This document shows, piece by piece, positions 512 through 32,225 of a stretch of DNA of 32,225 nucleotides (the first letter of the stretch is position 1; each line of letters starts with the position of its first letter). The position numbers and the translations under genes were made by a program. The stretch is from positions 1 to 32,225 of IMG/VR virus record IMGVR_UViG_3300013253_000003; one strand, 5' to 3'. Under the pieces are notes generated by a model that saw nothing but the letters and a program-made list of their open reading frames with translations, had not been told where the DNA came from and did no database searches. The stretch comes from a virus.

Positions 512-1855
512 TTATGCGCCGAGGATGTTATCCACGCGGAAGATACGGTAGTACTGATTTTGCTTAACTGTTGAAGCTAAGCTGTCCTGTGGAGAGGATG
601 TTACGAATGGGTTTGGTACCATGCCGTAACGAGTCTTGAAGCCAATCTTTGGCTGGAAGGTATCCTCACCAACCGCACGAACCATTGTTAGTGGTACGTA
701 TGGGCAGTAGAAGAGGCCAGCATCGTATGGGTTTGTGCCCTTATAGCCGATGTTGACATAGTCAGCCACAGCATATGGGTCAATGTATACGCGCATACGA
801 CCGTTCAAAGTACCAGCAAATGTGTTGCCAGTGTCGTCAACGTTCAGAGCAGTGTTCATTGCTGGAGCGTAGTCGAGCATACCTGAAGCGGCAAGTGCTG
901 AAGCTACGTCAGATGAACATACCATGAAGTTACCTTTACCGCGACGTGTTTCTTTCGCGATTGTGTTAGCTTCACGCTCGATCTGTACGATCAGACCTTT
1001 GAACTTTTCAACTGACCAACGACCGTCTGCATCTGTCTGCAGGTCGAAGATACCGTTAACAGCTGTATTTGCTGTAGCGGCGCCAGTCTTAGCTTGTGAG
1101 TTGATTGAACGAACAACTTCACGGTTGATTTCAGCCATGATTTCTGTTGACAGAATGTTGGCCAACTCAGTTTCGGCATCCAGACCATGGATTGCTTTCA
1201 GGTCTTGTGCCAATTCCAAGCTGTATTCTGCTTTTAGGGCGCGTGACTTTGCAGTCACAGTAGCTTTATCGATTGTGAAGCCCATTTCTGCAAACTGCTC
1301 GCCGCCTGTTGCACCAAGTGCTTCAGCTTCTGCAGTTGTGTATGGGTCGATCAGGCTGGCTGGATCAGTACGCTGATCGTCAACTGTTGAGTCAGCGTTA
1401 GTGTCTGAAATGCCGTCGAAGCCTGATGGGCCGCCTGCTGGGTATGAAGCTGTTGATGAATCACCTGAGAAGTTAGCAAGTGCTTCGCCGAACAGTGCTT
1501 CGTCACCATTAGTGGCACCAGCTTTTGTTGTCTTATAGCGTGACTTCATTGCGAAGATCAGACCAGTTGGACCAGACATTGGCTGAACACCACACATGTC
1601 GTATGCCATCAAGTTAGGCATTGCACGACGTACAAGCGCGATCAGTACTGGGTTCCAGTTCTGTACGTTTGCAGTGTTATTGGTTGGTGTTTCTGCAAGC
1701 ATTTGACCTTCTTCGATCAGTGCCTGCTCTTGGTTTTCCAGAACAGCTGCTGTTACAGCTTTTCTGTGATGATCTTGAATTGTGCCCGCTGACTCAGAGT
1801 TCAGTACTGGGGACCACTTCTCGATCAGCTTATCGTAAGATACCATATTTTGCAT
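512..1855 (-). CDS. 23: Major capsid protein (gp23)
   Basis: A 447-residue homologue of T4 gp23 (521 aa in T4), the HK97-fold protein that forms the hexameric capsomers. Family signatures include the N-terminal propeptide followed by a segment with NNTANVQNWNPVLIALVRR, and C-terminal stretches NPYDAGLFYCPYVP and PKIGFKTRYGMVPNPF. A gp21-type cleavage motif, LAE at residues 53-55, lies just before that conserved segment, so the mature protein probably starts at Thr56 (T4 cleaves after residue 65). The ATG at 1855 follows a GGGAG ribosome-binding site with suitable spacing. It is last in the head operon, after scaffold gp22 and before a strong terminator, as expected for the most abundant product. 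Confidence 0.97.
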   Translation of the reverse strand: MQNMVSYDKLIEKWSPVLNSESAGTIQDHHRKAVTAAVLENQEQALIEEGQMLAETPTNNTANVQNWNPVLIALVRRAMPNLMAYDMCGVQPMSGPTGLIFAMKSRYKTTKAGATNGDEALFGEALANFSGDSSTASYPAGGPSGFDGISDTNADSTVDDQRTDPASLIDPYTTAEAEALGATGGEQFAEMGFTIDKATVTAKSRALKAEYSLELAQDLKAIHGLDAETELANILSTEIMAEINREVVRSINSQAKTGAATANTAVNGIFDLQTDADGRWSVEKFKGLIVQIEREANTIAKETRRGKGNFMVCSSDVASALAASGMLDYAPAMNTALNVDDTGNTFAGTLNGRMRVYIDPYAVADYVNIGYKGTNPYDAGLFYCPYVPLTMVRAVGEDTFQPKIGFKTRYGMVPNPFVTSSPQDSLASTVKQNQYYRIFRVDNILGA

Positions 1856-1869
1856 TTTGGACTCCCAAA

Positions 1870-2943
1870 TTATTTCTTAGTTTTTTCGATTGCTGAAAGA
1901 TACTGAGCCATAGATCCGACAGACTCAACCATAGGTGCATCACCTTCGGTTGCATCTTCTTCAATATCAGCGGACTCAGATGCTTTTTTGGTAAAGTATG
2001 ATTCTTTGACAGTGTTCACTTTCTCAGCGAAAGCTTCTTCTGATTCAAATTCCATATCAGCTACCAAAGTCTTGAGTTTTTCGACTTGCGTCTCTGCAAG
2101 GCCAGTTGAGTGTTCACGAATTACAGCGTCACGCTTATAGGCGTCAAGCTCTTCAGCCATAGCCATGTTCTTTGTGATCGCTTCGTTGTGCGCTGTTTCC
2201 AGCTCTTCAACTTCTGCAGCTAGCTCATCGACTAGGTCAACTTTAGACTCAGGAACTTCGATGTATGATTCTGTGAACAGATCTTTCAGAGAGTTCATGA
2301 ACTTCTCAGCAATTTCTGTACGCAGACCAGTTTCGATAGCTACCTTGTTGTCTTCCATCCAGGACTCAACTACGTAGTTAAGATAGTTGTCGACCTTTTC
2401 AACGAGTTCTGACTTAGTAGTTTCAACTTCTTCAGCCAGTTCTTCGTTGTACTTTTCTTCGAGACGATCAATCTCTTGAGTCAGCTTTGATTTGATAGCT
2501 GCTTCAAAGATTGTTGCCGCTTTGTCTTTGAAACCGTCTGAGAGTGTGGCTTCTTCAGAGATCAGAGCATTCAGATCTTCTGAGAAATCAACTGCTACTT
2601 CGATTTCTTCTTGTTCAGCGATTGCTTCACCTTCAAAAGCTTCAGGTGCAGTACCTGCGGTCAATGTAGCGAGTACGCCTGAAAGCTTTTCTTTCGACAT
2701 ACCTTGCATTGCACCAACTGCAGCTGACATCATGCCAGCCTTAGTCTTAGGCATTGGATCCTGTTTGGTGTTGTCACCTTTACGGGCTGGTGCCTTCTTG
2801 GTTACTTCACCTGCTTTATCTGTTGCAGCAACTGACTGAGCTTCGGCGTTTTTAGGATCATGAGTTCCTTCTTCCACAACTTCGTCTGTTACTTCGTCAT
2901 GGAGTTCAACTTCCTGATCTTCGATTTGATTTTCATCAGTCAT
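1870..2943 (-). CDS. 22: Prohead core scaffolding protein (gp22)
   Basis: A 357-residue, strongly acidic protein with long Glu/Lys-rich segments that should be helical and coiled-coil (about residues 120-310). This is the usual look of the T4 gp22 scaffold, which fills the prohead and is degraded by gp21. Its identity rests on position between the protease gene and the major capsid gene and on composition. Several (L/I)xE tripeptides, including IAE near residue 107, fit the known gp21 cleavage preference. The N-terminal 90 residues are Glu/Thr/Lys-rich and low in complexity. The start at 2943 has a GGGAG Shine-Dalgarno 8 bases upstream, overlapping the end region of the protease gene. Confidence 0.92.
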   Translation of the reverse strand: MTDENQIEDQEVELHDEVTDEVVEEGTHDPKNAEAQSVAATDKAGEVTKKAPARKGDNTKQDPMPKTKAGMMSAAVGAMQGMSKEKLSGVLATLTAGTAPEAFEGEAIAEQEEIEVAVDFSEDLNALISEEATLSDGFKDKAATIFEAAIKSKLTQEIDRLEEKYNEELAEEVETTKSELVEKVDNYLNYVVESWMEDNKVAIETGLRTEIAEKFMNSLKDLFTESYIEVPESKVDLVDELAAEVEELETAHNEAITKNMAMAEELDAYKRDAVIREHSTGLAETQVEKLKTLVADMEFESEEAFAEKVNTVKESYFTKKASESADIEEDATEGDAPMVESVGSMAQYLSAIEKTKK

Positions 2944-2955
2944 AAGATTGACTCC

Positions 2956-3615
2956 CTATATTTTAGTTTTGAGTAACGAGAGGAAATTCTTAAACTCACG
3001 AACCTGTGTCTCATAGAGGTCGGCACGTGGAGCTCTTTTAATTTCAGTCTCCATTTGTTCAATATGTCTAGCTTCGATAATACCGTTGTTCCAAACCCAT
3101 TCAACACCTTCCATAACCCCATTAACAAAAGCGCTAGGTGCAGATGGATCCTGAACGATATCTACTGCGTTGAGTAGAAAATCGTCTTTGACGATCATCG
3201 CGTTATTACCTCGTTCTAAACTTCCCATACCACGAGTCGAGACGCCTAAGTTGACACCGCCATCGAGCAAACCTTGTACGATCTTACCCATTGGAGTTTC
3301 CAAAATAGTCGCCTTACCCACAACATCGTTGCCCTTCCATTCGAGCTTTTCGATCTTGTGAGAAACTTTGTCAAGATTAACGGTCGGTCCTTCAGGGTGA
3401 TTTAACTCACCTACGGCTCTGCCTTTGTCTACTTGCTCTGTATTGTATTTGTTTAGAGCTTTCTCCATCACAGCCTTTGGATATATGCGACCGTTACGAT
3501 TCTTTTGTTCTGCTTGCATAAAGATACCTTCAATGGCATATTTCTTACCACCATCTTTAGTAGCCTCAGTTAAGACTTCAAGATTTTGTTCGGTATATTC
3601 TGCAATCAGCTTCAT
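2956..3615 (-). CDS. 21: Prohead core maturation protease (gp21)
   Basis: A 219-residue serine protease of the T4 gp21 family (herpesvirus assemblin-like fold), which cleaves scaffold and capsid proteins at (L/I)xE sites inside the prohead. Conserved blocks are NRNGRIYPKAVME (residues 39-51), GELNHPEGPTVNLDKVSH (69-86) with the probable catalytic His73, and GVSTRGMGSL (124-133) with the probable nucleophile Ser126. The acidic DIVQDPSAPSAFV segment (152-164) follows. Its length matches the family (212 aa in T4). The start at 3615 overlaps the end of the upstream small gene by 4 bases, so translation is coupled. Order relative to gp22 and gp23 is as in T4. Confidence 0.95.
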   Translation of the reverse strand: MKLIAEYTEQNLEVLTEATKDGGKKYAIEGIFMQAEQKNRNGRIYPKAVMEKALNKYNTEQVDKGRAVGELNHPEGPTVNLDKVSHKIEKLEWKGNDVVGKATILETPMGKIVQGLLDGGVNLGVSTRGMGSLERGNNAMIVKDDFLLNAVDIVQDPSAPSAFVNGVMEGVEWVWNNGIIEARHIEQMETEIKRAPRADLYETQVREFKNFLSLLKTKI

Positions 3616-3824
3616 TTTTTTAGTACCTTCACGAATTCAGTAGCGGCTTTTTCTGCTTCTGCCTTCGATCTATATTTGTCTAGTCTATCGCCGTCAATAT
3701 ACGCAACGAATCCTGTCCGCTCTTTGTATACCATTATCTGGATTCTACCTAGTTTTTTATTAAGAACTAATTGTCCTTCAGGTTTTCTTCCAGTTAATTC
3801 ACGAATTTGACTAAATTGTTTCAT
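3612..3824 (-). CDS. Small prohead-core-position protein (gp68-like by position)
   Basis: A 70-residue basic protein with a strand-rich central segment (VLNKKLGRIQIMVYKE, then GFVAYIDGDRLDKYRS) and a C-terminal helix rich in Ala and Lys. It occupies the place of T4 gene 68, between gp67 and gp21, but is half the length of T4 gp68 (141 aa). It may be a minor prohead core protein; that function is inferred from position only. The stop overlaps the gp21 start by 4 bases. Upstream there is an exact late promoter box and no Shine-Dalgarno. The transcript from that box would have a leader of only about 2 bases. Confidence 0.7.
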   Translation of the reverse strand: MKQFSQIRELTGRKPEGQLVLNKKLGRIQIMVYKERTGFVAYIDGDRLDKYRSKAEAEKAATEFVKVLKK

Positions 3825-3831
3825 TTTAGTT

Positions 3832-3839
3832 TATTTATA
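3832..3839 (-). promoter_or_regulatory. T4-type late promoter box TATAAATA
   Basis: An exact TATAAATA on the minus strand in the 37-base gap between the acidic gp67-like gene and the 70-aa gene. It would give the protease-scaffold-capsid genes their own late transcript. The box ends 7 bases before the ATG at 3824. Confidence 0.65.
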
Positions 3840-3861
3840 CTTTTTTTATTTTTGACTGAGA

Positions 3862-4227
3862 TCAAGATTCTTCAGAACCCTCGTCTCCTTCAGTATCGTC
3901 TTCCCATTCGAGTCCTTCATCCTCGTCGGTGTCATCTTCATCACCCACTGACTCTTCATCATCAGTATCGGGCTCTTGTAACTCTTCTTCCTCCACGGCA
4001 TCTTCGTCCTCGTCAGTATCAAGCATTGCTTCTACTTCTTCATCAGAGATATCATCGATATCATCTTCTTGTTCGATGCCGTTATAGATCTGATCAGCTA
4101 GTCGAATCTTTTCCTGATCGAGGAGATCATTCATCTTAATAGTCATGATTTCGCCAAAGGCTTTGTTGGCATTATTATAATCCTGATCCAATGCCATCTG
4201 AATCAGGTTTTTTGTAGCTTCACTCAT
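3862..4227 (-). CDS. 67: Acidic prohead core protein (gp67-like)
   Basis: A 121-residue protein with a helical N-terminal half (about residues 1-50: MSEATKNLIQMALDQDYNN onward) and a C-terminal half made almost entirely of Glu, Asp, Ser and Gly. T4 gp67 (80 aa) is a small acidic prohead core protein between portal gene 20 and gene 68, and this gene has the same place and the same N-terminal helix plus acidic character. Here the acidic tail is longer. The ATG overlaps the portal stop by 4 bases, and a GTAGGAGATG Shine-Dalgarno lies inside the portal gene, so it is co-translated with the portal. The gene symbol is assigned on synteny and composition, not clear sequence identity. Confidence 0.75.
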   Translation of the reverse strand: MSEATKNLIQMALDQDYNNANKAFGEIMTIKMNDLLDQEKIRLADQIYNGIEQEDDIDDISDEEVEAMLDTDEDEDAVEEEELQEPDTDDEESVGDEDDTDEDEGLEWEDDTEGDEGSEES

Positions 4228-5777
4228 TTATCATCTCCTACAGGCTTGAGTTCAAACTTTTGTGCCGGTGCTTCTTGCTCTGGCTCTTCATCTTCTCTAT
4301 CGGCCTCTTCACCGCTCATCTCTTTGTCTATCTGTGCGATATCCTCATCTGAAAGCATAAGTACATTCTTTTGTACCCATTCTTTTGAGAAGTATTCGCC
4401 AACATAGTTCTGTACTTGGTCGAGAGTTTGTAGTCTCTCGCGTAGCATCTCTGCATCACGTAGTTCTGCAAAGTGATTATCACGTACATAGTCAATCGTG
4501 ATATCATTCTTCCACTCTTGCCAATCTTCTTCGGTAATGATACCTTTCATGATTAGTTGTGTTTTCAGGATGCCATAGAATAAGTGTGCAAATCGATTTC
4601 TCAGACGGTCAATGAACTTTTGGAACTTCAACTCGTCACGATTTACCTCGGTCGAACGACCTAAACTAAACTGCGCTTCTTGCTCTAAACGATTGATCGG
4701 CACGTTCAGTGCACGATACACCTTCTTTTGGAAATAGATGATGTCATCGATTTGTCCTAAGTTCTCACCACCTGGTAATGTAGTGATCTCAGTACCTTTA
4801 CCACCTTCACGACGTGGTAACCAAAAGTCTTCGAGCAATGACTGATGCTTACGATCGTCTCTGATCTCGCCAGTCTTCGCATCATATACAAGCTTATTAC
4901 GATACTTAGTCATGATTGACTTGAGATATTCTTCTGACTTACCACGTGGCATGTTTCCAACGTCGATATAGAAGATACGTCTTTCGGGTGCACGAGCAAG
5001 ACGATAGATGACCAACGAGTCTTCCATCATACGTAGCTGGTTAATTGGCTTCAAGCCCTTATGCAAGTGAGATACAATCTTCTTACGATCTTCACTTAAC
5101 AAACCAGAAGTAACGTATGACACAGAATCTACTGTCATCTTGATGCCTGAGTTTGATTGACCTGGTTTTTCTTGGAATATGAAGAACTCTTCGGTCTTAT
5201 CAACTAACTTAGCACCAGTTAGTTCATCTTTCTTATACTTTACTTTTTTGACCTTGCGCATCTTAGCTGCATCGATTGGTCGAATCTCTTGGATACCATC
5301 TTTAGGATTATTCTCATCAACTACAAGATGGTGATATAAACGGCCGTCAACGTACCAACGACGAAAGATGTCGTAGCCTATCTCTTTGAAGTTCAACATA
5401 CCGTATATGGTGTCGAACTCTTCTTTAATTACTTTTTTGATTCTATCAGGAGCCTTGACATCATCGAGGTTGATGTCCATATTTTGCGTTAGCTCTGATC
5501 CACTAATTGCCTCATTGACGATATCTTCGATAGCAGCATCAACTTCAGGATGCATCGCGTTACCACGATACTTCATGATAAGCTGATAGTTATCTTTTGA
5601 GTCGTCGCCGTCGAGGTTTAAGTATTGTCCATAATGTGTACCAGACGCAGTAGCATAACTTCCACCTTCGTCGTCCCGTGGAGGCACGATAGATGGTAGC
5701 TTCTGATCTTCTTTCTTTTTAGCCTTTTTGATTTCAAAACCAAATAAGGTTAAACCTTTGCCTGCTTCTTCTGCCAT
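4224..5777 (-). CDS. 20: Portal vertex protein (gp20)
   Basis: A 517-residue homologue of the T4 portal protein (524 aa), the dodecameric ring at the unique vertex through which DNA is packaged and to which the neck attaches. Recognisable family segments include YRGNAMHPEVDAAIEDIVNE (residues ~68-87), APERRIFYIDVGNMPRGKSEEYL (~264-286), the LEDFWLPRREGGKGTEITTLPGG block (~317-339) and FSLGRSTEVNRDELKF (~373-388). The C-terminal ~30 residues are acidic and then Pro/Gln-rich. No clear Shine-Dalgarno precedes the ATG; the leader instead contains a 9-bp hairpin. Position after tail tube and before core proteins matches T4. Confidence 0.97.
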   Translation of the reverse strand: MAEEAGKGLTLFGFEIKKAKKKEDQKLPSIVPPRDDEGGSYATASGTHYGQYLNLDGDDSKDNYQLIMKYRGNAMHPEVDAAIEDIVNEAISGSELTQNMDINLDDVKAPDRIKKVIKEEFDTIYGMLNFKEIGYDIFRRWYVDGRLYHHLVVDENNPKDGIQEIRPIDAAKMRKVKKVKYKKDELTGAKLVDKTEEFFIFQEKPGQSNSGIKMTVDSVSYVTSGLLSEDRKKIVSHLHKGLKPINQLRMMEDSLVIYRLARAPERRIFYIDVGNMPRGKSEEYLKSIMTKYRNKLVYDAKTGEIRDDRKHQSLLEDFWLPRREGGKGTEITTLPGGENLGQIDDIIYFQKKVYRALNVPINRLEQEAQFSLGRSTEVNRDELKFQKFIDRLRNRFAHLFYGILKTQLIMKGIITEEDWQEWKNDITIDYVRDNHFAELRDAEMLRERLQTLDQVQNYVGEYFSKEWVQKNVLMLSDEDIAQIDKEMSGEEADREDEEPEQEAPAQKFELKPVGDDK

Positions 5778-5796
5778 ATCATTTCACTCAAGTATT

Positions 5797-5822
5797 GGAG
5801 AGGCACATGATTATGCCTCTCC
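5797..5822 (-). other. Leader hairpin between gp19 and gp20
   Basis: A perfect 9-bp inverted repeat (GGAGAGGCA / TGCCTCTCC, 5797-5805 and 5814-5822) with an 8-base loop fills most of the gp19-gp20 gap. On the minus strand it is followed by AATACTTGAG, with no U-tract, so it is not a convincing leftward terminator. It could be a weak terminator, an RNA-processing stop or a 5'-end stabilising stem of the portal mRNA. Confidence 0.6.
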
Positions 5823-5826
5823 ATTC

Positions 5827-5834
5827 TATTTATT
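5827..5834 (-). promoter_or_regulatory. Possible late promoter variant AATAAATA
   Basis: The minus strand reads AATAAATA, one mismatch from the TATAAATA late box. It overlaps the gp19 stop region and lies 50 bases upstream of the portal start. Initiation would fall at about 5821, so the leader hairpin would sit at the extreme 5' end. This is weak evidence, from similarity and position only. Confidence 0.35.
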
Positions 5835-6360
5835 ATGTTGTTGTATCAGTGTCGTAGTACTGATAAGCGAAGGTTACCTGGAACCTTTCGATCTCATCGT
5901 TCGAGCTATAAGCCAAATCGATTGGAGACATCTCTTGAGGGAATGCACCTCTAAAGGTGTATGTCTTTAAGATGTCACCTGAACGATCGAGTTGTTCTAC
6001 CTTCAGGTCTGCTTCGTATGCAATCGGTGAAGTGAGACCAGTATTTGCGCTGTGTGCGTTCATACCGTTCATCCAACGTTCCATTGAGTTACGGATTGCA
6101 AAGTCTGTATCATTGATGATGGTAACTGTCCACACATCAAATGTACGATCACCTGCAATCTTCAACTGACGACCACGGAAAGGAACAACGATTTGTCCTA
6201 CAGTGGAGCCTGGAAGTTGTGCTGTCTCACAAAGGAATGATGTCAATTCTGCATCACCATTTGCATAGCCAGGAAAGTTAATCGTAGCCTTAAAGAGGTT
6301 AGGACGTGCGCCACCGCCTCTGAGCTTCGACTTAAAGTCATCTACGCCGAGAATAGCCAT
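5833..6360 (-). CDS. 19: Tail tube protein (gp19)
   Basis: A 175-residue homologue of T4 gp19 (163 aa), which stacks as hexameric rings to form the inner tail tube. Family hallmarks are the start MAILGVDDFKSKLRGGGARPNLFKATINFP, seen here in shorter blocks, the FLCETAQLPGSTVG segment (residues ~42-55), FRGRQLKIAGDRTFDVWTV (~62-80) and the C-terminal FQVTFAYQYYD strand. It directly follows the sheath gene with a 11-base gap and a perfect AAGGAGG Shine-Dalgarno that starts within the sheath stop codon region, fitting high-level coordinated synthesis of sheath and tube. Confidence 0.97.
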   Translation of the reverse strand: MAILGVDDFKSKLRGGGARPNLFKATINFPGYANGDAELTSFLCETAQLPGSTVGQIVVPFRGRQLKIAGDRTFDVWTVTIINDTDFAIRNSMERWMNGMNAHSANTGLTSPIAYEADLKVEQLDRSGDILKTYTFRGAFPQEMSPIDLAYSSNDEIERFQVTFAYQYYDTDTTT

Positions 6361-6371
6361 ATCTTACCTCC

Positions 6372-8141
6372 TTAAACTGTGCCAACTACTTCTTCAAAGT
6401 CAACACCGGAGCGAACAGCTACAAAGTTTAGCGTGATGTAGTTGATCGAGCGGGCTGGTTTGATGAAGATATTAGCGATGAACTCATTGCGGTCAACGAC
6501 TGCAGGAGTGTTGTTTGTCTCATCACAGACTACACGGAAGTCAGTGATACCACGCCGACCTTTTACTTCCCGAAGGACAGGCTCGACGATGTTAACAAAC
6601 TCTGCTCTTGTAAATTCGTCGTTGAATTCGAAGAGTGCTTGTTCAGCTGCTCTACCGATCGCGCGCTCTAGTACCAAGAACAAGCGACGTACATTGATAC
6701 GATCGAATGCTGATGGACGACCAAGTTTTGTCTTATCGCCGAAGAGCAATGAGCCTTGACCTGGAATGTTTGCGACTGGATTTACACCTGCTTTATACAG
6801 TGTATCTCTCTGACCCTTAGTTGGGGTCCAGCTCAATGCAGTAATACCAAGGTATTGACCACGACGTGAGCCTGCTGGAGAGAACCATGGTGCACGATTG
6901 ATATCGGTAGCAGCCATGATACCTGCAGTAGATGAAGCAGCTGGGATTTGAATGTATTGATCATTAAACTTATCATACACTTTCAGGAAGTTGCCGTCCA
7001 TGACGAGGTATGATGAGTTAGTAAATGCGTTTGCTGTAGCAACGATGTTATCTGTAATCGTTGAAGCATTTGTTAGACCAATAACGTCGTCACGTGCAGG
7101 TGATGCAGCAACAACACAGTCTTTGCGAAGTGACTGAGCTGTAGTGATCAAGTCGTTTACGATAGTGGTTTGGTCTGTTGAGTTTTGCATAGACGGTGAA
7201 ATCAAGAAGTCAACTTCTACGATATCACGATCTTCGTATAAGTCATAGCCATTCAAGAACTCTGCAGTTCCTAGAGCACCAGAATTTACACCGCTATCAA
7301 AGTTATGAGTCTTGATAGCTCTTACACCTGCATTTAGGATGTAATCATCTCCTGAGTCAAGCACATCGCCAGCTTGTTCGCCTGGCGCATTCAGATAATC
7401 TGAATCGTGATTAACCATATAGATGTAATCTGAACGAGCATTGATTACGTCGATGACGTAATTAGTGCTACCATCAGCTAGTTTGGCGTCTGGTGCAACA
7501 GACACGAATGGATACGTTTCGAGGATTTCTCCCTTTGTACCTGTCAGTTTACCGTTACGATCAATCACAACCAGATGCAATTCGTCGTTTGAACCCTTGC
7601 GATCTGATGCATATGATGATGTTTGCGGTGCTGCGTCGAATTCGTCTTTGTAATCCCAATTCGTAAAGATCGTAGAGTTTCCAGAATCAGCAGGACAGAT
7701 TTGAACTTCAAGGCTATTACCTAATTCACCTGCAAACTTAGCGATGAATGTATGACCTGTGTTGTTCAGCGTACCATACTGAGCATCGAAATCGTCTTCG
7801 TTCTTTATAAGAGGTGCATTGGCACTATCAGCCGCAGACTGTAGTGTCAATGAATAAGCATTTTTAGCATCAGATGTAGCTTCTCTCGTTACGAAAGCAG
7901 AGCTTGAATAACGGAGGAAGTAATTAGCTGAATGCCAATCGATGGTGTTATCAGAGTCTGGAGTAGCAAACGTATTCACTAGTTCGGCTTCGTTTGCAAT
8001 AGCTACTCGCTCTCCGATAGGACCCCATCTAAAGTTGCCAACAATTGCGCCAGTAGTCGACTGTACGTTAGGAACGCCACCAGTCAGATCTATCTCTTTG
8101 ACGACAACCGCTGGACTTGCAGACGGTGTTGAGAGTGCCAT
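6372..8141 (-). CDS. 18: Contractile tail sheath protein (gp18)
   Basis: A 589-residue homologue of T4 gp18 (659 aa). The N-terminus (SPAVVVKEIDLTGGVPNV) and the conserved C-terminal domain are typical of the sheath. In the latter, FDRINVRRLFLVLERAI, ALFEFNDEFTRAEFVN and FRVVCDETNNTPAVVD are clear (residues ~475-560). These C-terminal strands form the inter-subunit mesh that transmits contraction. The variable middle (residues ~90-330) contains several Asp-Ser pairs. The ATG at 8141 has an AGGAAG Shine-Dalgarno and lies 58 bases downstream of an exact late promoter box, so this gene begins a strong late transcript. Confidence 0.97.
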   Translation of the reverse strand: MALSTPSASPAVVVKEIDLTGGVPNVQSTTGAIVGNFRWGPIGERVAIANEAELVNTFATPDSDNTIDWHSANYFLRYSSSAFVTREATSDAKNAYSLTLQSAADSANAPLIKNEDDFDAQYGTLNNTGHTFIAKFAGELGNSLEVQICPADSGNSTIFTNWDYKDEFDAAPQTSSYASDRKGSNDELHLVVIDRNGKLTGTKGEILETYPFVSVAPDAKLADGSTNYVIDVINARSDYIYMVNHDSDYLNAPGEQAGDVLDSGDDYILNAGVRAIKTHNFDSGVNSGALGTAEFLNGYDLYEDRDIVEVDFLISPSMQNSTDQTTIVNDLITTAQSLRKDCVVAASPARDDVIGLTNASTITDNIVATANAFTNSSYLVMDGNFLKVYDKFNDQYIQIPAASSTAGIMAATDINRAPWFSPAGSRRGQYLGITALSWTPTKGQRDTLYKAGVNPVANIPGQGSLLFGDKTKLGRPSAFDRINVRRLFLVLERAIGRAAEQALFEFNDEFTRAEFVNIVEPVLREVKGRRGITDFRVVCDETNNTPAVVDRNEFIANIFIKPARSINYITLNFVAVRSGVDFEEVVGTV

Positions 8142-8198
8142 TTTATCTTCCTTCTAAAAAAATTATATGTTCCATAATACGATTAGTCAACTTGCTAT

Positions 8199-8206
8199 TA
8201 TTTATA
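8199..8206 (-). promoter_or_regulatory. T4-type late promoter box TATAAATA
   Basis: An exact TATAAATA on the minus strand in the 68-base gp17-gp18 gap, overlapping nothing else. The predicted start near 8193 leaves a ~52-base AT-rich leader before the sheath ATG, ending with a good Shine-Dalgarno. T4 also uses a late promoter ahead of gene 18. Confidence 0.8.
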
Positions 8207-8209
8207 CAA

Positions 8210-9817
8210 TTACAAATTTGGATCATATTCGATGGCCCAACCCTTGGCTAGTCTGTCTTCTTCAGTTTCAATGGCTGCGATCGCATCTGCACCGTCATCG
8301 ATAAAACCAAATGGAACGATATCATCTTCTAGTTCTTTAATCCTGTTTTCGAAAAGTAGTTTCTTCATGTTAATGTCTGTCATGTCCATAAAGTAACTAC
8401 CAGTCGTAAAGTAACCAAACAACACAAGGTTCATGACTAAGTCGTCGTGATTACCGTCTGACGCCTCGAACGACTGTCCTTTCGCTTCGAACGTAGAGAT
8501 CTCGAGTATCGTATTCTCATCTACCACCTTTAGTTTATTATTCTCAAGTATGTCTTTGAATGCAGAACAACCGAGTCTTTTAGTCTTACGATTGATCTCA
8601 ATGCCAAGAGCATTTGCCTTTGTCAGCGATTCTGCATGCATGTTCTCATACTCAAGATCATGCCATAAACCATTACAAACGAGAGAACCTTGATCATTTG
8701 ATTCAATAACAACATATGCGTTATTGTAGACTTTCGCATATTTATAGATAATGTTTGGGAAGAGTATTGGAGAGATAGTGTTATTGCGATATACAGCAAC
8801 CTGTTCAAACGGGGTAACGCTAATATCGATCAAATTAAATGTAGAATAATCCTGTCCTCTTCCCTTACTCACATCAACAGTCATTACGTAATCGTGATTC
8901 TTTTCCGGTTCCTTATAAATGTTGAGTAAACCGCCTTCCATCACTCGTTTTGGTGGATTTGCTCTTAAACCCATTAAACACTCAGCGTTAATGAGTGTAT
9001 CACCGGTGCCGAAAAATGTATTACCAAATTCTTGATCGAACTGTAATTGACTGGTATTTGAAATTGTTTGGGCTTTCCAAGCCTCGTCACGACCAGGAAC
9101 ATCGTACCAATCTACCCTAAACGATTGAAACTCGTTTACTCCTTGTACAGCTCCTTCCCAAATTTTATGAAACTGGTTGCCAATACCGTTAGCTGTCGAT
9201 GTAATGATAACCTTTGTATCTTTACCTGCCGAAACAACAGGATATGTTGATGTATAAAACTCTGCGGCTCGTTCTACGAAGGCAAACTCATCAAGATAAA
9301 GAAGATTAACTGACATACCACGAATAGAGCTACCAGAAGTAGCAGAAGCAATAATGCGGGAATTATTACTAAACTCCAAAGAGCCTTTATTGAGGGCTTT
9401 ATTACCTGGCTGTAAAAAGAACGGGATATTCTCAAGCATGAGCGTGATGCGAGATAGCATCTCACGCGCAGTAGCGCCTTTGTTCGCAAGTACAGCGATC
9501 GTCTTTTCTGGATTGAAGAGCGCAAACCAGAGTAAGTATGCGCATGCAGAGATTGACTTGCCAGATTGACGACATGCGAGAACGACATTGAAACGATTTT
9601 CCTGAAAGTGTTTGAACATCCTTTTTTGATAAGGATATAGTTCAAAGTTTACCAAGCCTTTGTCAAGAGATATAACTTTAACGTACTTCTCTGCAAAGTA
9701 TACAGGGTCATGCATACACTTCTTGTATTCTGTGATGAGCTCTGGAGTCCATGATTGTTGAACCCCATCCCTTTTAACATTAGGATTCCCCAGATAACTT
9801 TGTAGTTGGCTCAACAT
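8210..9817 (-). CDS. 17: Terminase large subunit (gp17)
   Basis: A 535-residue packaging motor ATPase and nuclease (T4 gp17 is 610 aa). ATPase domain: Walker A variant CRQSGKS at residues 82-88, Walker B LLYLDEF at 172-178 with the catalytic Glu after Asp, and coupling motif TSTANG at 206-211. RNase H-like nuclease domain: first acidic residue in TVDVSKG (Asp315), Glu372 in VVIESND and the NHDD pair at 457-459. These are the expected metal-binding acids. The start at 9817 lies inside gp16, overlapping by 38 bases, with GAGGATG as Shine-Dalgarno. The same gp16/gp17 arrangement is seen in T4. No Asp-Ser dipeptide was found in it, unlike the tail proteins. Confidence 0.97.
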   Translation of the reverse strand: MLSQLQSYLGNPNVKRDGVQQSWTPELITEYKKCMHDPVYFAEKYVKVISLDKGLVNFELYPYQKRMFKHFQENRFNVVLACRQSGKSISACAYLLWFALFNPEKTIAVLANKGATAREMLSRITLMLENIPFFLQPGNKALNKGSLEFSNNSRIIASATSGSSIRGMSVNLLYLDEFAFVERAAEFYTSTYPVVSAGKDTKVIITSTANGIGNQFHKIWEGAVQGVNEFQSFRVDWYDVPGRDEAWKAQTISNTSQLQFDQEFGNTFFGTGDTLINAECLMGLRANPPKRVMEGGLLNIYKEPEKNHDYVMTVDVSKGRGQDYSTFNLIDISVTPFEQVAVYRNNTISPILFPNIIYKYAKVYNNAYVVIESNDQGSLVCNGLWHDLEYENMHAESLTKANALGIEINRKTKRLGCSAFKDILENNKLKVVDENTILEISTFEAKGQSFEASDGNHDDLVMNLVLFGYFTTGSYFMDMTDINMKKLLFENRIKELEDDIVPFGFIDDGADAIAAIETEEDRLAKGWAIEYDPNL

Positions 9818-10139
9818 CTATAATATCATCCTCTCGTAGCAACTTCTGCAGATCAGCTGTAGAACTCAAGAACACGTTATTTGTTTGGTTCTCGATTTGT
9901 TTTGGTTGTTCATCCATATCTAATTGCTTTTGCTTTTTATTCAAATCCATCAGACGATCATTCACGTCAGATACGTTCTTGATCATGCCTGATAATACTT
10001 CATAGGCACGAGGATGCTCGCTTTCACGAGCAACCTCTATCATCATCTCTAATGCGTCTTTGCCTTTTTCTATAAGTTCATAATATGTTTCACGCGAATA
10101 ATCGTAATCATTCGATACATTATCTTTTTCTTTGCTCAT
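9780..10139 (-). CDS. 16: Terminase small subunit (gp16)
   Basis: A 119-residue, mostly helical protein with a central coiled-coil segment (about residues 55-85: EVLSGMIKNVSDVNDRLMDL). T4 gp16 (164 aa) forms an oligomeric ring through such a coiled coil and regulates gp17. The EHPRAYEVLSGM motif is typical of T4-type small terminases from marine phages. It overlaps the start of gp17. There is one base between the upstream stop and its ATG and little Shine-Dalgarno, so expression probably depends on coupling. An exact TATAAATA inside the upstream gene (10232-10239) could also supply it. Confidence 0.9.
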   Translation of the reverse strand: MSKEKDNVSNDYDYSRETYYELIEKGKDALEMMIEVARESEHPRAYEVLSGMIKNVSDVNDRLMDLNKKQKQLDMDEQPKQIENQTNNVFLSSTADLQKLLREDDIIDVEPTTKLSGES

Positions 10140-10140
10140 C

Positions 10141-11445
10141 TTAGTGTGCCTTAAATGTATAACCTCTACCGCTTGTTGGTGGAGTGTAAGTTACATCAGT
10201 ACCAGTCTTGATAGTCAAGTCTAAATCACAGTATTTATAGGTACCACCTGCTGTAGCTTGACCCGCATAATTGATAACACCAGACTTACCAAGTCCCTGT
10301 CTAACTGAAGAGTCAGTCCACATTGGTCCTAAATAGATGTAGTATGGATCTTCAGTAGCTTCCATCGGAATACCAGGCCGTAGAGCATCACTCAGATTCA
10401 TAGCGTCATCTGCAGGATCAAATGTAGTATGAGAAGCGATAACACCGTAATTTACATCATCTGAGTCAGCCTTCGCCCATACTCCGTTTACTCCCCAGAA
10501 TAAGCGGTTTTCACCTATTGAGTCTGCAACCTGATCGATGGCGATCATGATAATATCACCTGACTGAGTCAAGTTGGCAACATCTGTATCACTATCAGGA
10601 GATACGTTAGTCCTCCATTCTTCAAAATGTGTGAACCCACTTAAATCAATTGTCATGTCAGCTAGATCAGTACCACTACCAGTACGATCTTGACCATGGC
10701 CTCCTAATAGACCTTTAGTGATGAGATTCAAGTTAAACGAACGACCGTTTCCTAAATTAGAGCCAGCATATTGAAACCAGTTTTCTGGAGCAATAGTCAA
10801 TTGAACTCCTCCAGAAAAATGATCACTGCCAGCACCACCATTTTTCCCTCTACCAATACGAGTGATAGGAGGAGCATAACCATTTGAGTCTTGCAGCTGT
10901 GCTTTTGTAACTTCAATCTCAAAGTATATACGTTCATCCTGTTTAATTGGTTGTGAAACGATAGCTTCACCACCCAAACCAATAGCACCAGGCGGTGGTG
11001 TGAAACCATAATCTAGGTATGATACACCACCAAAAAGATCATCAGAATCAGCGGCACTGCGATCATCCCAACCTCTTGCAACAAAGGTGTGTTTAACATT
11101 ACCGTTGTTGTTATAACTGTTAGGCTCTCTAAAATGAACTGGTTTACCGGATCCACCGAAGAATGGTCCTTGTGTCGTAGTTCCACTAAATCCTTTGAAG
11201 ATCGTACCAATGCCCAATCCAATTGGATTAAAGTTGATTTGACGTGAAACACCAGGATATGATTGTTGCAAAGATCTCAACAATGCACGATTTGAGAATG
11301 TAATCAAATCTGTCTGATAAAAATTCTTAATGAATTCTTCACCATCAGTTGGATCAGCTGAATTAGCAATCAGCTTAGCCATCCAAGAACCAAGAGATAC
11401 CCTGACGTCTTTACTTTTGTAACTGTCTCTTACCCAAAATGCCAT
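10141..11445 (-). CDS. Putative virion structural protein, SPRY-like C-terminal half
   Basis: A 434-residue protein inserted between gp15 and gp16; T4 has no gene here. The first ~70 residues (MAFWVRDSYKSKDVRVSLGS onward) look like an attachment region. From about residue 175 (YFEIEVTKAQL) there is a pattern resembling SPRY/B30.2 lectin-like domains: a FEIEV strand, then GDIIMIAIDQ (~300), LFWGVNGVW (~318-326) and a final YYIYLGPMW strand. Gly-rich loops and Asp-Ser pairs match the other tail proteins here. A perfect AGGAGG Shine-Dalgarno precedes the ATG. It is probably a neck or tail-exposed decoration or binding protein; the SPRY reading is tentative. Confidence 0.6.
   Translation of the reverse strand: MAFWVRDSYKSKDVRVSLGSWMAKLIANSADPTDGEEFIKNFYQTDLITFSNRALLRSLQQSYPGVSRQINFNPIGLGIGTIFKGFSGTTTQGPFFGGSGKPVHFREPNSYNNNGNVKHTFVARGWDDRSAADSDDLFGGVSYLDYGFTPPPGAIGLGGEAIVSQPIKQDERIYFEIEVTKAQLQDSNGYAPPITRIGRGKNGGAGSDHFSGGVQLTIAPENWFQYAGSNLGNGRSFNLNLITKGLLGGHGQDRTGSGTDLADMTIDLSGFTHFEEWRTNVSPDSDTDVANLTQSGDIIMIAIDQVADSIGENRLFWGVNGVWAKADSDDVNYGVIASHTTFDPADDAMNLSDALRPGIPMEATEDPYYIYLGPMWTDSSVRQGLGKSGVINYAGQATAGGTYKYCDLDLTIKTGTDVTYTPPTSGRGYTFKAH
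10232..10239 (-). promoter_or_regulatory. Possible intragenic late promoter for gp16-gp17
   Basis: An exact TATAAATA on the minus strand, 93 bases upstream of the gp16 start and inside the preceding gene, where it encodes part of a Tyr-Lys-Tyr run. The position suits a terminase promoter, but the codons alone can explain the match. Confidence 0.3.
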
Positions 11446-11455
11446 TTATTCCTCC

Positions 11456-11911
11456 TTACCGCCAAGTCGTGATGATTAGATCATGACCACTGTCCATGGA
11501 AAGGGTCATCGTTACAGTATTTTTTCCTGTGAGTGTAAAGTCATACAACTCATTTTGTAAGATACCGTTTTTATAAACCATGATATTACTAGAATCAAAT
11601 AGTAGTACATTGCCTTGTAAATCACTGTCTGTAAATACAGTATCACCCGAATCGGCTTCATAAAAGTATTTGTACATCGTAAGACCAGTAGCATACTGCG
11701 AGATGTAGCTTGAATCTACAAGATCTTTGATGTAGTTTGAATCGGCTTGACCCTTGATATAGTTTGAGTCGATTAAAGCCAAAGTCTTTGCAGAGTCTAA
11801 TGTGGTTGCACTTTGTAGAGTAGTTACTCGACCATCTAGATCGGTGAAGTTGCCGTCTAGTTCAGCATGAGTAAGTTCCACTCCTTTCGTGCTTCTTAAT
11901 GTGATTGTCAT
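11456..11911 (-). CDS. Small tail protein with one copy of the fibre beta-repeat
   Basis: A 151-residue protein. Residues 1-30 (MTITLRSTKGVELTHAELDG...) match a short N-terminal tag common on marine phage fibre proteins. Residues ~40-75 carry three 'DSNYIK'-type repeats. Residues ~80-151 form one copy of the beta domain that is repeated six times in the 1749-aa fibre (YFYEADSGDTVFTDSDLQG ... VYKNGILQNELYDFTLTGK). It looks like a minimal one-repeat relative of the giant fibre, placed between gp15 and gp16. The Shine-Dalgarno is TAGGAGA. It is likely a tail or neck appendage; partner unknown. Confidence 0.7.
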   Translation of the reverse strand: MTITLRSTKGVELTHAELDGNFTDLDGRVTTLQSATTLDSAKTLALIDSNYIKGQADSNYIKDLVDSSYISQYATGLTMYKYFYEADSGDTVFTDSDLQGNVLLFDSSNIMVYKNGILQNELYDFTLTGKNTVTMTLSMDSGHDLIITTWR

Positions 11912-11927
11912 GTTTTTCTCCTAAACG

Positions 11928-12737
11928 TTAACTACTATCAATCGTAGGTGTGATACGAGTAATATAACCGTAAGCGCCAGCACTATCGGCACTTACACCA
12001 CCACCCGTGCCATCAGAGTCAGCGCGAGTTGTGATTGTTTGAACTGATATATCTGAATCTTGCAAACCAGCATCCATGAAGAACATCTCTGTGTTAACCT
12101 CAGTAATGATTGCAGATTCTCTATCAACAGGTCCATAATATGAAAGTTTCATATCAAAAGAAAGTGTATAGATGATCGTACGACGTTGAGCTAATTGCCC
12201 ATCAAAATCATCTTGAAAGTCTGTACCAGTGATTATGACTGGAATATCTTCTACAAAGTCAGGGAACAGATCAGAAAATGGTTTAATCGTCATCGTATAT
12301 TGAGGATTAAACGTTGGTAGTATCTGCTCAACTACTTGTAAGCAATCATCATGTGATTTAGCATATATGTTCAACTGAAAGCTAATAGTATAAGGCACAG
12401 GAGAATACATCTTCGTGCGCTTCAATACACTGCTAGTTGGTTGACTCAATGAACTGAGTTTCGTTAATTGCCTTGAAGTATCATATGTAATAGCTGATAT
12501 CTCGAAAGACATACGAGGCAATTTAATAGCTAGCTTTTCTCCACCATCTTGTAAATCAGGGTTTTCACGAATACGGTCTAAATACTTTTCCTTAGGTGCA
12601 TATGATAAAGGCACTTTAATCTGGTTAATAGTTTGGCCTGCACTGTTATGCCGCATGACATACAAGTTATTAAACAGTCGACCAAAGAGAGCAACTGCCT
12701 TTCTTGTCTTCTCATGATAAAAATATGTGCCAAACAT
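11928..12737 (-). CDS. 15: Tail completion / sheath stabiliser protein (gp15)
   Basis: A 269-residue homologue of T4 gp15 (272 aa), which caps the tail tube and sheath and joins the tail to the neck. The start MFGTYFYHEKTRKAVALFGRL and the following NLYVMRHNS segment are diagnostic, as are the central PVPYTISFQLNIYAKS (~132-147) and QILPTFNPQYTMTIKPF (~157-173) blocks. The C-terminal ~40 residues are Asp/Ser/Gly-rich and less conserved. Its ATG overlaps the gp14 stop (TAATG), with a GGAGG Shine-Dalgarno inside gp14, so the two neck proteins are co-translated. Confidence 0.96.
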   Translation of the reverse strand: MFGTYFYHEKTRKAVALFGRLFNNLYVMRHNSAGQTINQIKVPLSYAPKEKYLDRIRENPDLQDGGEKLAIKLPRMSFEISAITYDTSRQLTKLSSLSQPTSSVLKRTKMYSPVPYTISFQLNIYAKSHDDCLQVVEQILPTFNPQYTMTIKPFSDLFPDFVEDIPVIITGTDFQDDFDGQLAQRRTIIYTLSFDMKLSYYGPVDRESAIITEVNTEMFFMDAGLQDSDISVQTITTRADSDGTGGGVSADSAGAYGYITRITPTIDSS

Positions 12738-30025: not shown

Positions 30026-30379
30026 CTATGTGGTCACGGCTGGTGCAACTACTATCTTTCCCTCTAAAATCCGTTCAATGATGTCATTGTCATTACTATC
30101 TGTATATTGGATTTCGGCATCAAATACGTACCTTCCTGAGCGCAGCGCATCAGTCTGAACATTAGTCAATGAGAGTGTAATAATTCCATCAGCAGGTGGA
30201 GTGTTAATAGCAAATGCGAAGGAGGTAGTATCATCACTGTCACTATTGTAATTCCGTTTCATAGTGGCAGCGCCGGTGTAACCGTCTAGATTTTTTGGGT
30301 TCCCTGATGCATCGACAAGATGAAGCTCTATGGCAACATCAGAACCCTGATCTATTGTAAACTGTTCGTATTGGGCCAT
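30026..30379 (-). CDS. Baseplate/fibre adaptor-like protein (BppU N-terminal-like)
   Basis: A 117-residue beta-sandwich candidate. The sequence runs FTIDQGSDVAIELHLVDASG, NLDGYTGAATMKR, ADGIITLSLTNVQTDALRSG, RYVFDAEIQYTDSND and ILEGKIVVAP. The order of G.d..i.l.l.D..G.p.dL.Gy, dG.i.l.l....T..l..G.Y.yD and l.G...v is that of the N-terminal domain of siphophage BppU-type baseplate proteins and of related small proteins in T4-like marine phages. It starts the structural block 40 bases downstream of a late promoter, with a GAGGGA Shine-Dalgarno. It could dock the fibres; this is inferred. Confidence 0.65.
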   Translation of the reverse strand: MAQYEQFTIDQGSDVAIELHLVDASGNPKNLDGYTGAATMKRNYNSDSDDTTSFAFAINTPPADGIITLSLTNVQTDALRSGRYVFDAEIQYTDSNDNDIIERILEGKIVVAPAVTT

Positions 30380-30436: not shown

Positions 30437-30465
30437 TTTACAAGACGATCGAAATATGGTATAAT
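30437..30465 (+). promoter_or_regulatory. Sigma70-type promoter with extended -10
   Basis: TTTACA (30437-30442), a 17-base spacer, then TATAAT (30460-30465) preceded by TG one base upstream (TGGTATAAT). That is one mismatch from the -35 consensus, a perfect -10 and an extended -10 element. It reads into the SET-domain gene with a ~27-base leader carrying AGAGG. No TATAAATA was seen on the plus strand, so these genes are probably early or middle, not late. Confidence 0.82.
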
Positions 30466-30498: not shown

Positions 30499-30849
30499 AT
30501 GAAATTTGATATTCGTGATGTAAAAATAAAAGGCAAAGGTATGATAGCTACGGCTGATATTCAAGCAGCCGAAACGATTTGTACATGTACGGCAATTCGT
30601 TTAACTAGCTTTCAATCAGAAGAGCTGAGATATACTTCCTTATTCAAATATCTTTTCATGAAAGATGAGGCATATCACCTTGCTTTAGGTGATGTCTCTC
30701 TTGTTAATCACTCATTTGAGCCCAATTCAAAAGTTCTTTGGGAAGAAGATAAGATACATCTGATAGCTACTAAAGATATCTCAATCGGTGAAGAGATAAC
30801 TCATACATATAGTAACATAGATGACTATGATATTAGTGGATGGATTTAA
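30499..30849 (+). CDS. Compact SET-domain protein (putative protein lysine methyltransferase)
   Basis: A 116-residue protein that is essentially a bare SET domain. Motifs in order: KGKGMIAT (residues 11-18, the G-x-G S-adenosylmethionine loop), LVNHSFEPNSKV (68-79, the NHxxxPN pseudoknot motif) and DISIGEEITHTYS (93-105, the GEExxxxY motif with the probable catalytic Tyr104). Size is close to the ~119-aa viral SET protein of chlorella virus PBCV-1. SET enzymes methylate lysines in proteins; no substrate can be read from the sequence. Candidates are host or virion proteins. It has an AGAGG Shine-Dalgarno 5 bases from the ATG and is first behind the sigma70-like promoter. The stop overlaps the next start (TAATG). 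Confidence 0.82.
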   Translation: MKFDIRDVKIKGKGMIATADIQAAETICTCTAIRLTSFQSEELRYTSLFKYLFMKDEAYHLALGDVSLVNHSFEPNSKVLWEEDKIHLIATKDISIGEEITHTYSNIDDYDISGWI

Positions 30850-31496
30850 TGGATAAAATTATTGATTTAGATGAATATCGTTTATGGATATTTGATTATG
30901 AAAATGAATACTTTGAAAAAGTTCGTGCAAAGGCTTTAGAAGAAGATGGTTGGTTGAAAGATAATTATCAACCAGAAAAGTTTACTGTATCTGACCACGT
31001 GGTCATCGGTATATTATACGATAATGTAACTAATGAACCCATTGGTTTTGGTGGCTTGAAAGAATTTACACCTGATGTGGTTAGTATGATGCATCGTTTT
31101 TACTTATTCCCAGAGTTGAGAGCAGATAAGAATCCAATGAATCATAAGAACGGTAAAATTTTCGTTGAAACTCTCAAAGCTATGCAATGGTTTGTCGAGA
31201 CTCAAACATCGTACAAGCTCGGTGTCATACACATGCAACAAAGGTCAGCTAAGAAAGCTGGCCAGCAAATTTGGTGGAAGTTGATGTGTAAGATCGTCAA
31301 ATCTGCAGATGAAAGATGGACAAACTATAAAGATGGTTTAGTTCAAACATATCCAGGTGAAGCAACTAGCTGTTACCAAAATTTACTTTATCTAGAATTA
31401 GATGATTATACGATCGAAGATTGGAATCCTAAAACAATGTCGTATGATCAACACGCATTAAGGATGGAACATGAACAGCTATCTACTGCCAATTAA
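30849..31496 (+). CDS. Unrecognised cytoplasmic protein of the SET/oxygenase cassette
   Basis: A 215-residue soluble protein of unknown function. The ATG at 30849 is preferred because it overlaps the SET gene stop as TAATG; an in-frame ATG nine bases earlier is possible. The middle (~45-115) has a strand-turn-strand GILYDNVTNEPIGFGGLKEF, then MMHRFYLFPELRA and a helix FVETLKAMQWFVETQ. This order loosely recalls GNAT acyltransferases, but no clear acetyl-CoA loop (Q/RxxGxG/A) was identified. There is no signal peptide or membrane segment. It overlaps the next gene by 26 bases, so it belongs to the same transcript and probably the same pathway. Confidence 0.75.
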   Translation: MDKIIDLDEYRLWIFDYENEYFEKVRAKALEEDGWLKDNYQPEKFTVSDHVVIGILYDNVTNEPIGFGGLKEFTPDVVSMMHRFYLFPELRADKNPMNHKNGKIFVETLKAMQWFVETQTSYKLGVIHMQQRSAKKAGQQIWWKLMCKIVKSADERWTNYKDGLVQTYPGEATSCYQNLLYLELDDYTIEDWNPKTMSYDQHALRMEHEQLSTAN

Positions 31497-31956
31497 CTAT
31501 CTCTTCAATACTGCGGCTCTTCTCAAAGAAGCAAAAGAGAAAGAATATGAGCATTATGACGATCCGAGATATGGTAAGTCTGTTGGCGCACATATCTTAA
31601 AAAAAGATATTCCTGAAGCTGAGATTCAAGCAAAGGAATTTTGTGATTTTTATGGTTTAGAGCAGGGATCCCCGAGATATTATAAGCTTGAAGCTGATCA
31701 CTATCTCTTACCTCATGTAGACTACAATACCACCTGTTCGGTCAATCACATCTTGAGTAATGACTCTGCACCAGTAACTATACTTGGTGAAGACTACCAC
31801 TATAAAACCGCTTTGCTCAATACTTCGGTTCAACACGGAGTAAATAACATTGGAAAGGAAGAAAGATTATTATTTAAGATATCTTTCTTTGAAAGTACGT
31901 ATGAAGAAATTAGAGAACAGATACGATCACGAGAAGCTACTTTCAGCATTGCGTAG
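31471..31956 (+). CDS. Fe(II)/2-oxoglutarate-dependent oxygenase, Asp/Asn hydroxylase type
   Basis: A 161-residue protein with the facial triad pattern of 2-oxoglutarate oxygenases: HVD at residues 82-84 (YLLPHVDYNT), a distal His122 in SVQHGVNN, and Arg132 in the following KEERLLFKISFF strand, where 2-oxoglutarate is usually bound. The final 'NtsvqHgv.N....R...ki' strand pair is typical of the small aspartyl/asparaginyl hydroxylase-like group common in marine phages. The preceding FYGLEQGSPRYYKLEADHYL segment is the expected pre-motif strand. It probably hydroxylates a protein or small metabolite; substrate unknown. An AAGGATGGA ribosome-binding site lies within the upstream gene. It overlaps both neighbours. 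Confidence 0.78.
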   Translation: MNSYLLPINYLFNTAALLKEAKEKEYEHYDDPRYGKSVGAHILKKDIPEAEIQAKEFCDFYGLEQGSPRYYKLEADHYLLPHVDYNTTCSVNHILSNDSAPVTILGEDYHYKTALLNTSVQHGVNNIGKEERLLFKISFFESTYEEIREQIRSREATFSIA

Positions 31957-32225
31957 TACTAATATTGTTGCTCCTCAAGTGCATGTAACTTCTCCTACTG
32001 GTAAAGATTATGTTTACTCAACAGGTGATCTATCAAAATTTGGTTTAGAACAAAATGCTTTTACTGTAATGAACGAAGCTTTTATAGGAACTTACGTAGA
32101 AGAGGTTTACAACGATATAGCAAAAGACTATGATATTTGCCGTGGTCGTTTCATGTCTCTGACACCAGAAAACCGTGCATATACATATCATTATGATATG
32201 TCAAAAAGATTACATATACCATTAG
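31901..32225 (+). CDS. Second 2-oxoglutarate oxygenase-like protein (3' end outside window)
   Basis: An open frame starting at ATG 31901, overlapping the end of the previous oxygenase by 56 bases, with 108 codons before the window edge. Residues ~80-108 read CRGRFMSLTPENRAYTYHYD, then MSKRLHIPL. This is the first half of the Asp/Asn hydroxylase signature, with HxD at 97-99 and the R-x-H-x-P-L strand that follows it in that family. The distal His and Arg would lie beyond the window. It is a diverged tandem relative of the preceding gene, not a copy. The start is the first in-frame ATG; a second at 32069 would remove most of the N-terminal domain. Confidence 0.65.
   Translation, partial: MKKLENRYDHEKLLSALRSTNIVAPQVHVTSPTGKDYVYSTGDLSKFGLEQNAFTVMNEAFIGTYVEEVYNDIAKDYDICRGRFMSLTPENRAYTYHYDMSKRLHIPL

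Follow-up and report, generated by a model that had tools for sequence, protein, structure and literature searches.

Background

Among the described systems closest to the locus reported here is the 'host recognition cluster' of pelagimyophages, a variable island in the structural region that carries fibres, glycosyltransferases and radical SAM cassettes and that, in the available part of its description, is proposed to serve surface alteration; the same part lists an Asp/Asn beta-hydroxylase among the pelagimyophage core proteins (PMC7029224). The island described below also lies in a T4-like structural region beside fibre genes. The pelagimyophage cluster, however, belongs to SAR11 phages and runs from VrlC to gp14, the likeness is one of fibre/baseplate position and, in relatives of the present phage, of glycosyltransferase-like and radical SAM genes, and the set of three oxygenases considered here (O1, O2 and O3) is not described for it in the available part of that source (PMC7029224).

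A second parallel is offered by the S-SSM6a-type cluster of jumbo cyanophages, a predicted phage-borne biosynthesis with several 2OG (2-oxoglutarate) and cupin-like oxygenases; clusters of 2OG enzymes in these phages have been interpreted as capsule decoration or metabolite production (PMC7824862). That cluster is centred on carbamoyltransferases and a halogenase (PMC7824862), whereas none of these was seen at the type of island analysed here. More widely, numerous 2OG-FeII oxygenase proteins have been found in 14 of 16 cyanophages (PMC3037559), and the 141-kb pelagiphage genome Mosig (MT647606.1) gave nine 2OG-FeII_Oxy_3 matches, which fall into several clusters.

Two solved proteins provide further points of comparison. 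Cpz10 (PDB 7v4f), the solved protein that best matches gene 4 of the locus, is a beta-hydroxylase acting on an intermediate of the nucleoside antibiotic caprazamycin; unlike the phage oxygenase, it operates in a Streptomyces antibiotic cluster (PMC9814697). The first gene resembles vSET of PBCV-1 (1n3j), a small stand-alone viral SET domain, in keeping the GxG and NHS motifs and the C-terminal tyrosines. The PBCV-1 protein, however, methylates histone H3 and comes from a virus that infects algae, whereas the present gene sits in a phage.

Here we analyse the 32,225-bp window IMGVR_UViG_3300013253_000003, which is the entire virus contig. An earlier note on this DNA had read four overlapping genes at its end as a compact protein-modification cassette. 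Our preferred reading, to which we assign a probability of about one half, is that these genes stand first in an operon for tailoring a glycan or small molecule, and that the SET gene among them is optional.

Results

Layout of the locus

The minus strand of the window encodes portal, sheath, terminase, connector and fibre genes, the structural region of an uncultivated T4-like myovirus; a megablast search with 10 kb of the window gave no match among phage records. Since the window is the whole contig, the plus-strand gene run is cut off by the contig end. The features considered are:

30026-30379, minus strand: first gene of the fibre operon, 117 aa, fibre-assembly-like (phrog_1084, 9.5e-23; phrog_3304, 'L-shaped tail fiber protein assembly', 3.4e-17)
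30437-30465, plus strand: extended -10 sigma70-type promoter, TTTACA-17-TATAAT, with TG ahead of the -10 (11/12 matches)
30499-30849, plus strand: SET gene, 116 aa
30840-31496, plus strand: gene 2, GNAT-like, 218 aa (215 aa if begun at the second ATG, 30849)
31471-31956, plus strand: gene 3, oxygenase family O1, 161 aa
31901-32225, plus strand: gene 4, oxygenase family O2, 108 aa, incomplete, ended by the contig

Each of the four plus-strand frames overlaps its successor, and the ATG of gene 2 at 30849 forms TAATG with the SET stop. For gene 4 we adopted a start at 31901, as against the TTG at 31850 in the mechanical ORF list. The 117-aa minus-strand gene begins at 30379, 119 bp from the SET gene and divergent from it. 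The promoter hexamers, their 17-bp spacing and the ribosome-binding site recur in two relatives, L001 and L140. Thus the basic geometry given in the earlier note was correct: the frames overlap from 30499 to the contig end, one sigma70-like promoter precedes them with 11 of 12 matches and is conserved in both relatives, and the run diverges from the fibre operon.

Comparison of the window with L001 gave dN/dS values of 0.07 to 0.10 for genes 2-4 (0.07 for gene 2), which argues that these are real genes. Over the same pair, dS was 0.18 for the 117-aa fibre-side gene (30026-30379 vs 4500-4853) and 0.55-1.20 for genes 2-4; this faster divergence of the island suggests that a recombination boundary may separate the two.

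The SET gene

The assignment of the first gene to the SET family, made earlier from motifs, held up: its product matches Pfam PF00856 (E 4.1e-15, 56.5 bits, cut-off 22.4), its best PDB match is PBCV-1 vSET, with which it could be aligned, and the translation contains GKG at 12, NHS at 70, GEE at 97 and tyrosines Y104 and Y110. The protein is a putative lysine methyltransferase.

At the equivalent site in L001 and L140 the SET gene is missing, with the promoter and ribosome-binding site intact, and no SET match was found anywhere on the 51.6-kb contig that holds L001 (G001). SET is an optional member of the operon and stands directly behind a promoter and ribosome-binding site that the relatives share. 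Because neither L001 nor the relative on contig G038 has it, gain in the lineage of the window is the simplest reading.

The wider survey gave a similar picture. SET genes were present on two of 40 O1 contigs (G066 and G067), which represent one lineage, and an O1, O2, O3 or GNAT-like gene lay near SET in none of 41 SET loci, a set that includes the same contigs more than once. An 18-row O1 profile (A7) found no matches on 18 SET contigs.

Three further observations concern SET genes. A terminator-like hairpin lies at 30672-30695 within the SET frame of the window, and the region has three such sites against 0.8 expected from shuffles. Tandem pairs of SET-domain genes occur in L017 (9908-10866) and L018 (9923-10849). 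Finally, in three loci of other phages (L010, L012 and L013) only a few genes separate SET from downstream genes that, by eye, are baseplate wedge-like and of the gp25/gp6 type.

Gene 2

The second gene, previously left as an unknown, has a GNAT-like fold as judged from an AF2 model of low to moderate confidence (mean pLDDT 47). No family match was found for its sequence. Nearly all of the listed Foldseek and VIA-align matches of the model, including the best in Foldseek, are GNAT/MYST acetyltransferases; the VIA-align Z scores reach 9.9, with RimL and HAT1 among the matches. The acetyl-CoA-binding Q/RxxGxG/A motif was not found in the expected stretch of the protein (LFPELRADKNPMNHKNGK), and for this reason we call the gene GNAT-like only. 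A tblastn search with gene 2 gave no significant match in phage records. Its identification as rhaM was rejected, the Pfam hit being weak and below the cut-off.

Gene 4, an Asp/Asn beta-hydroxylase-like protein

The earlier note had called both oxygenases Asp/Asn-hydroxylase-type. For gene 4 the call stands by way of a homologue: the incomplete window copy alone has no PF05118 hit, and its full-length counterpart in L001, 85% identical to it, scores 26.6 bits against a cut-off of 22.6. Of the expected residues, the window copy shows the HxD motif; the contig stops short of the distal His and Arg, which are visible in the homologues only. The L001 protein matches Cpz10, and with a profile Cpz10 is the best-matching solved structure for gene 4 and its homologues (E 8.5e-24). 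Gene 4 is thus probably Asp/Asn beta-hydroxylase-like, a prediction made through its full-length relative. PF05118 also includes enzymes that modify protein residues, e.g. AspH.

Gene 3 and the O1 family

Gene 3, by contrast, was not placed in PF05118. Its product has no match of note in Pfam (PF05118 included), PHROG or NCBIfam; its likeness to that family shows in a profile comparison. A motif scan of viral contigs for O1 returned 54 stretches, 47 of them with a family member, counts which are lower bounds because the pattern demands one motif and which are partly redundant (L098 and L100 are near-copies). The family comprises more than 40 phage proteins, and tblastn with three of its members found no match among 50,697 phage records.

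Across 17 aligned rows of the family, the residues of H82-x-D84 and also H122 and R132 do not vary. The 18-row profile contained one row with a PF05118 match, and the comparison was redone without that row; the resulting 17-row profile aligned with the PF05118 group at the HxD, the H and the R (E 2.3e-5, probability 76%). Single-sequence hhalign of O1 against the Mosig oxygenases and O2 gave nothing, the signal coming only from the 17- and 18-row profiles. An AlphaFold model of gene 3, built from two sequences, had a pLDDT of 30 and was set aside; the fold was assigned from motifs and profiles instead. On these, O1 is predicted to be 2OG-Fe(II)-oxygenase-like, with an HxD...H iron site and a distal Arg for 2OG.

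The oxygenase set O1-O2-O3

O1, O2 and O3 are neighbours in many uncultivated phages. Of 47 O1 loci, 11 have an O2-type gene and nine an O3-type gene no more than 1.5 kb from O1, with frequent overlaps, and O1 and O3 are fused as a single protein in two lineages (L088 and L098/L100). PF05118 matches were found on 17 of 40 O1 contigs vs one of 36 SET contigs. O3 is a candidate oxygenase, since it has an HxD-type motif, is found fused to O1 and gives a weak Pfam hit; tblastn with O3 and two further O1-containing proteins gave no significant match in phage records. The three families form a conserved core, and their partnership is well supported by gene neighbourhood and fusion. The tight coupling earlier claimed for all four genes therefore applies to the oxygenases, but not to SET, which L001 and L140 lack and which has no such neighbour in the SET loci surveyed.

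Neighbours at other O1 loci included nine Radical_SAM and four FA_desaturase proteins. Among these neighbours, the radical SAM protein at 330-1490 of L085 carries an HMPTM zinc ribbon, and one other neighbour matches that zinc-ribbon family too.

Continuation of the operon in relatives

L001, on contig G001, keeps the promoter, the ribosome-binding site and genes 2-4, and the 57-kb contig G038 (L096/L140) has the same arrangement, likewise free of SET. Thus the neighbourhood that the earlier note had proposed to look for in related phages is conserved for genes 2-4, but not for the SET gene, and the GNAT-like gene appears to belong to the operon of the close relatives.

What had been described as a compact four-gene cassette is longer in both relatives, where the operon goes on for ~9 genes past gene 4. 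These include O3, a P-loop kinase-like gene, two genes of unknown function, and glycosyltransferase-like, aminotransferase (PLP), radical SAM/SPASM and methyltransferase-like genes. The glycosyltransferase-like calls are uneven, one protein having a PHROG match and two others resembling that protein. G001 and G038 share 13 genes in the same order, 48-88% identical. Family searches for PF13302 and PF13640 in G000 and G001 found nothing. The window ends within gene 4, and it is by analogy with the relatives that the operon of this phage is expected to go on in the same way.

Beyond the island, G001 carries the baseplate wedge genes gp25 and gp6, and connector genes lie downstream of the fibres; the island sits between the fibre and baseplate operons.

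The island of a second lineage

The island of contig G066 (L139) encodes an O1-O3 fusion, O2, a second PF05118 protein and one more 2OG oxygenase, together with radical SAM proteins, a sulfotransferase-like protein and a QueC match. Its SET gene, of 89 aa, lies ~7 kb from O1, and a 154-aa protein is GNAT-like by eye. The stretch from 1673 to 12479 of this locus (G066:C1:5000-22000) is a dense one-strand tailoring island that includes a desaturase-like gene. Because SET recurs in the O1 island of G066 and G067, a functional link between SET and the oxygenases should not be dismissed; it is possible, though not general.

Discussion

We propose that a plus-strand tailoring operon of ~13 genes begins with these four, which lie nearest its promoter. 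The oxygenases would most likely add hydroxyl groups to a single small building block, such as a glycan, an amino-sugar or a lipid, at one position after another, and the remaining genes would make that building block and transfer it. The purpose would probably be a change of the host surface that hinders competing phages, or else decoration of the virion.

The earlier note had instead assigned the SET protein and the oxygenases a joint role on one protein target, of the host or the phage's own fibres. With the GNAT-like protein added, such a cassette would methylate, acylate and hydroxylate a single protein, the adjacent fibre or one of the host's. Both the SET and GNAT families include protein modifiers, the fold predicted for gene 2 matches RimL and HAT1, the locus adjoins fibre genes, and the independent G066 island combines SET with many oxygenases and, by eye, a possible GNAT-like gene. 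A joint role for SET and the oxygenases is nevertheless not borne out, as both close relatives and most O1 islands are without SET. Nor is a protein target supported: the relatives' operon goes on with aminotransferase, kinase-like and glycosyltransferase-like genes, and the best-matching characterised relative of O2 uses a small molecule. Oxygenase homologues with small-molecule substrates had been named as evidence that would count against the cassette, and Cpz10, the best solved relative of gene 4, is one, although it leaves room for protein modification. Because the Cpz10 substrate is small and the neighbours are glycosyltransferase-like, aminotransferase, kinase-like and radical SAM genes, a tailoring pathway fits better, and we regard the protein cassette as unlikely.

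The genes might also be unlinked accessories with separate targets, gathered at the fibre hot-spots of marine T4-like phages. The wealth of 2OG oxygenases in such phages makes chance neighbours more likely (the nine Mosig matches are spread over several sites, and 14/16 cyanophages carry these proteins; PMC3037559), and the SET gene is a separate optional insert. Random accumulation, however, does not predict that O1, O2 and O3 stay together despite rearrangement and fusion, nor a 13-gene order that is the same in G001 and G038, and we hold this account, too, to be improbable. An operon of the proposed kind whose product is a secondary metabolite or a modified nucleobase, not a surface glycan, seems to us a distinctly unlikely variant. 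It draws on the metabolite reading of the jumbo cyanophage 2OG clusters, for which capsule decoration was the other option (PMC7824862), on the role of the O2 relative Cpz10 as a nucleoside-antibiotic enzyme and on the QueC match within the G066 island; weighing slightly against it, no carrier protein, transporter or TET/JBP-type enzyme is among the annotated cluster genes.

Returning to the tailoring operon, we suggest, as a speculation that is rather unlikely to hold in full, that O1, O2 and O3 make up a so far undescribed team of phage oxygenases for serial multi-position oxidation of one substrate, with the GNAT-like, SET, desaturase and sulfotransferase genes as interchangeable add-ons. 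If so, SET and the GNAT-like protein would act on this product as well, and the product might be a carrier protein or the adjacent fibre. Accessory islands near phage fibre genes are known, and their chemistry is mostly unread; the conserved and partly fused oxygenase set would provide a concrete pathway in uncultivated phages, distinct from the optional SET gene.
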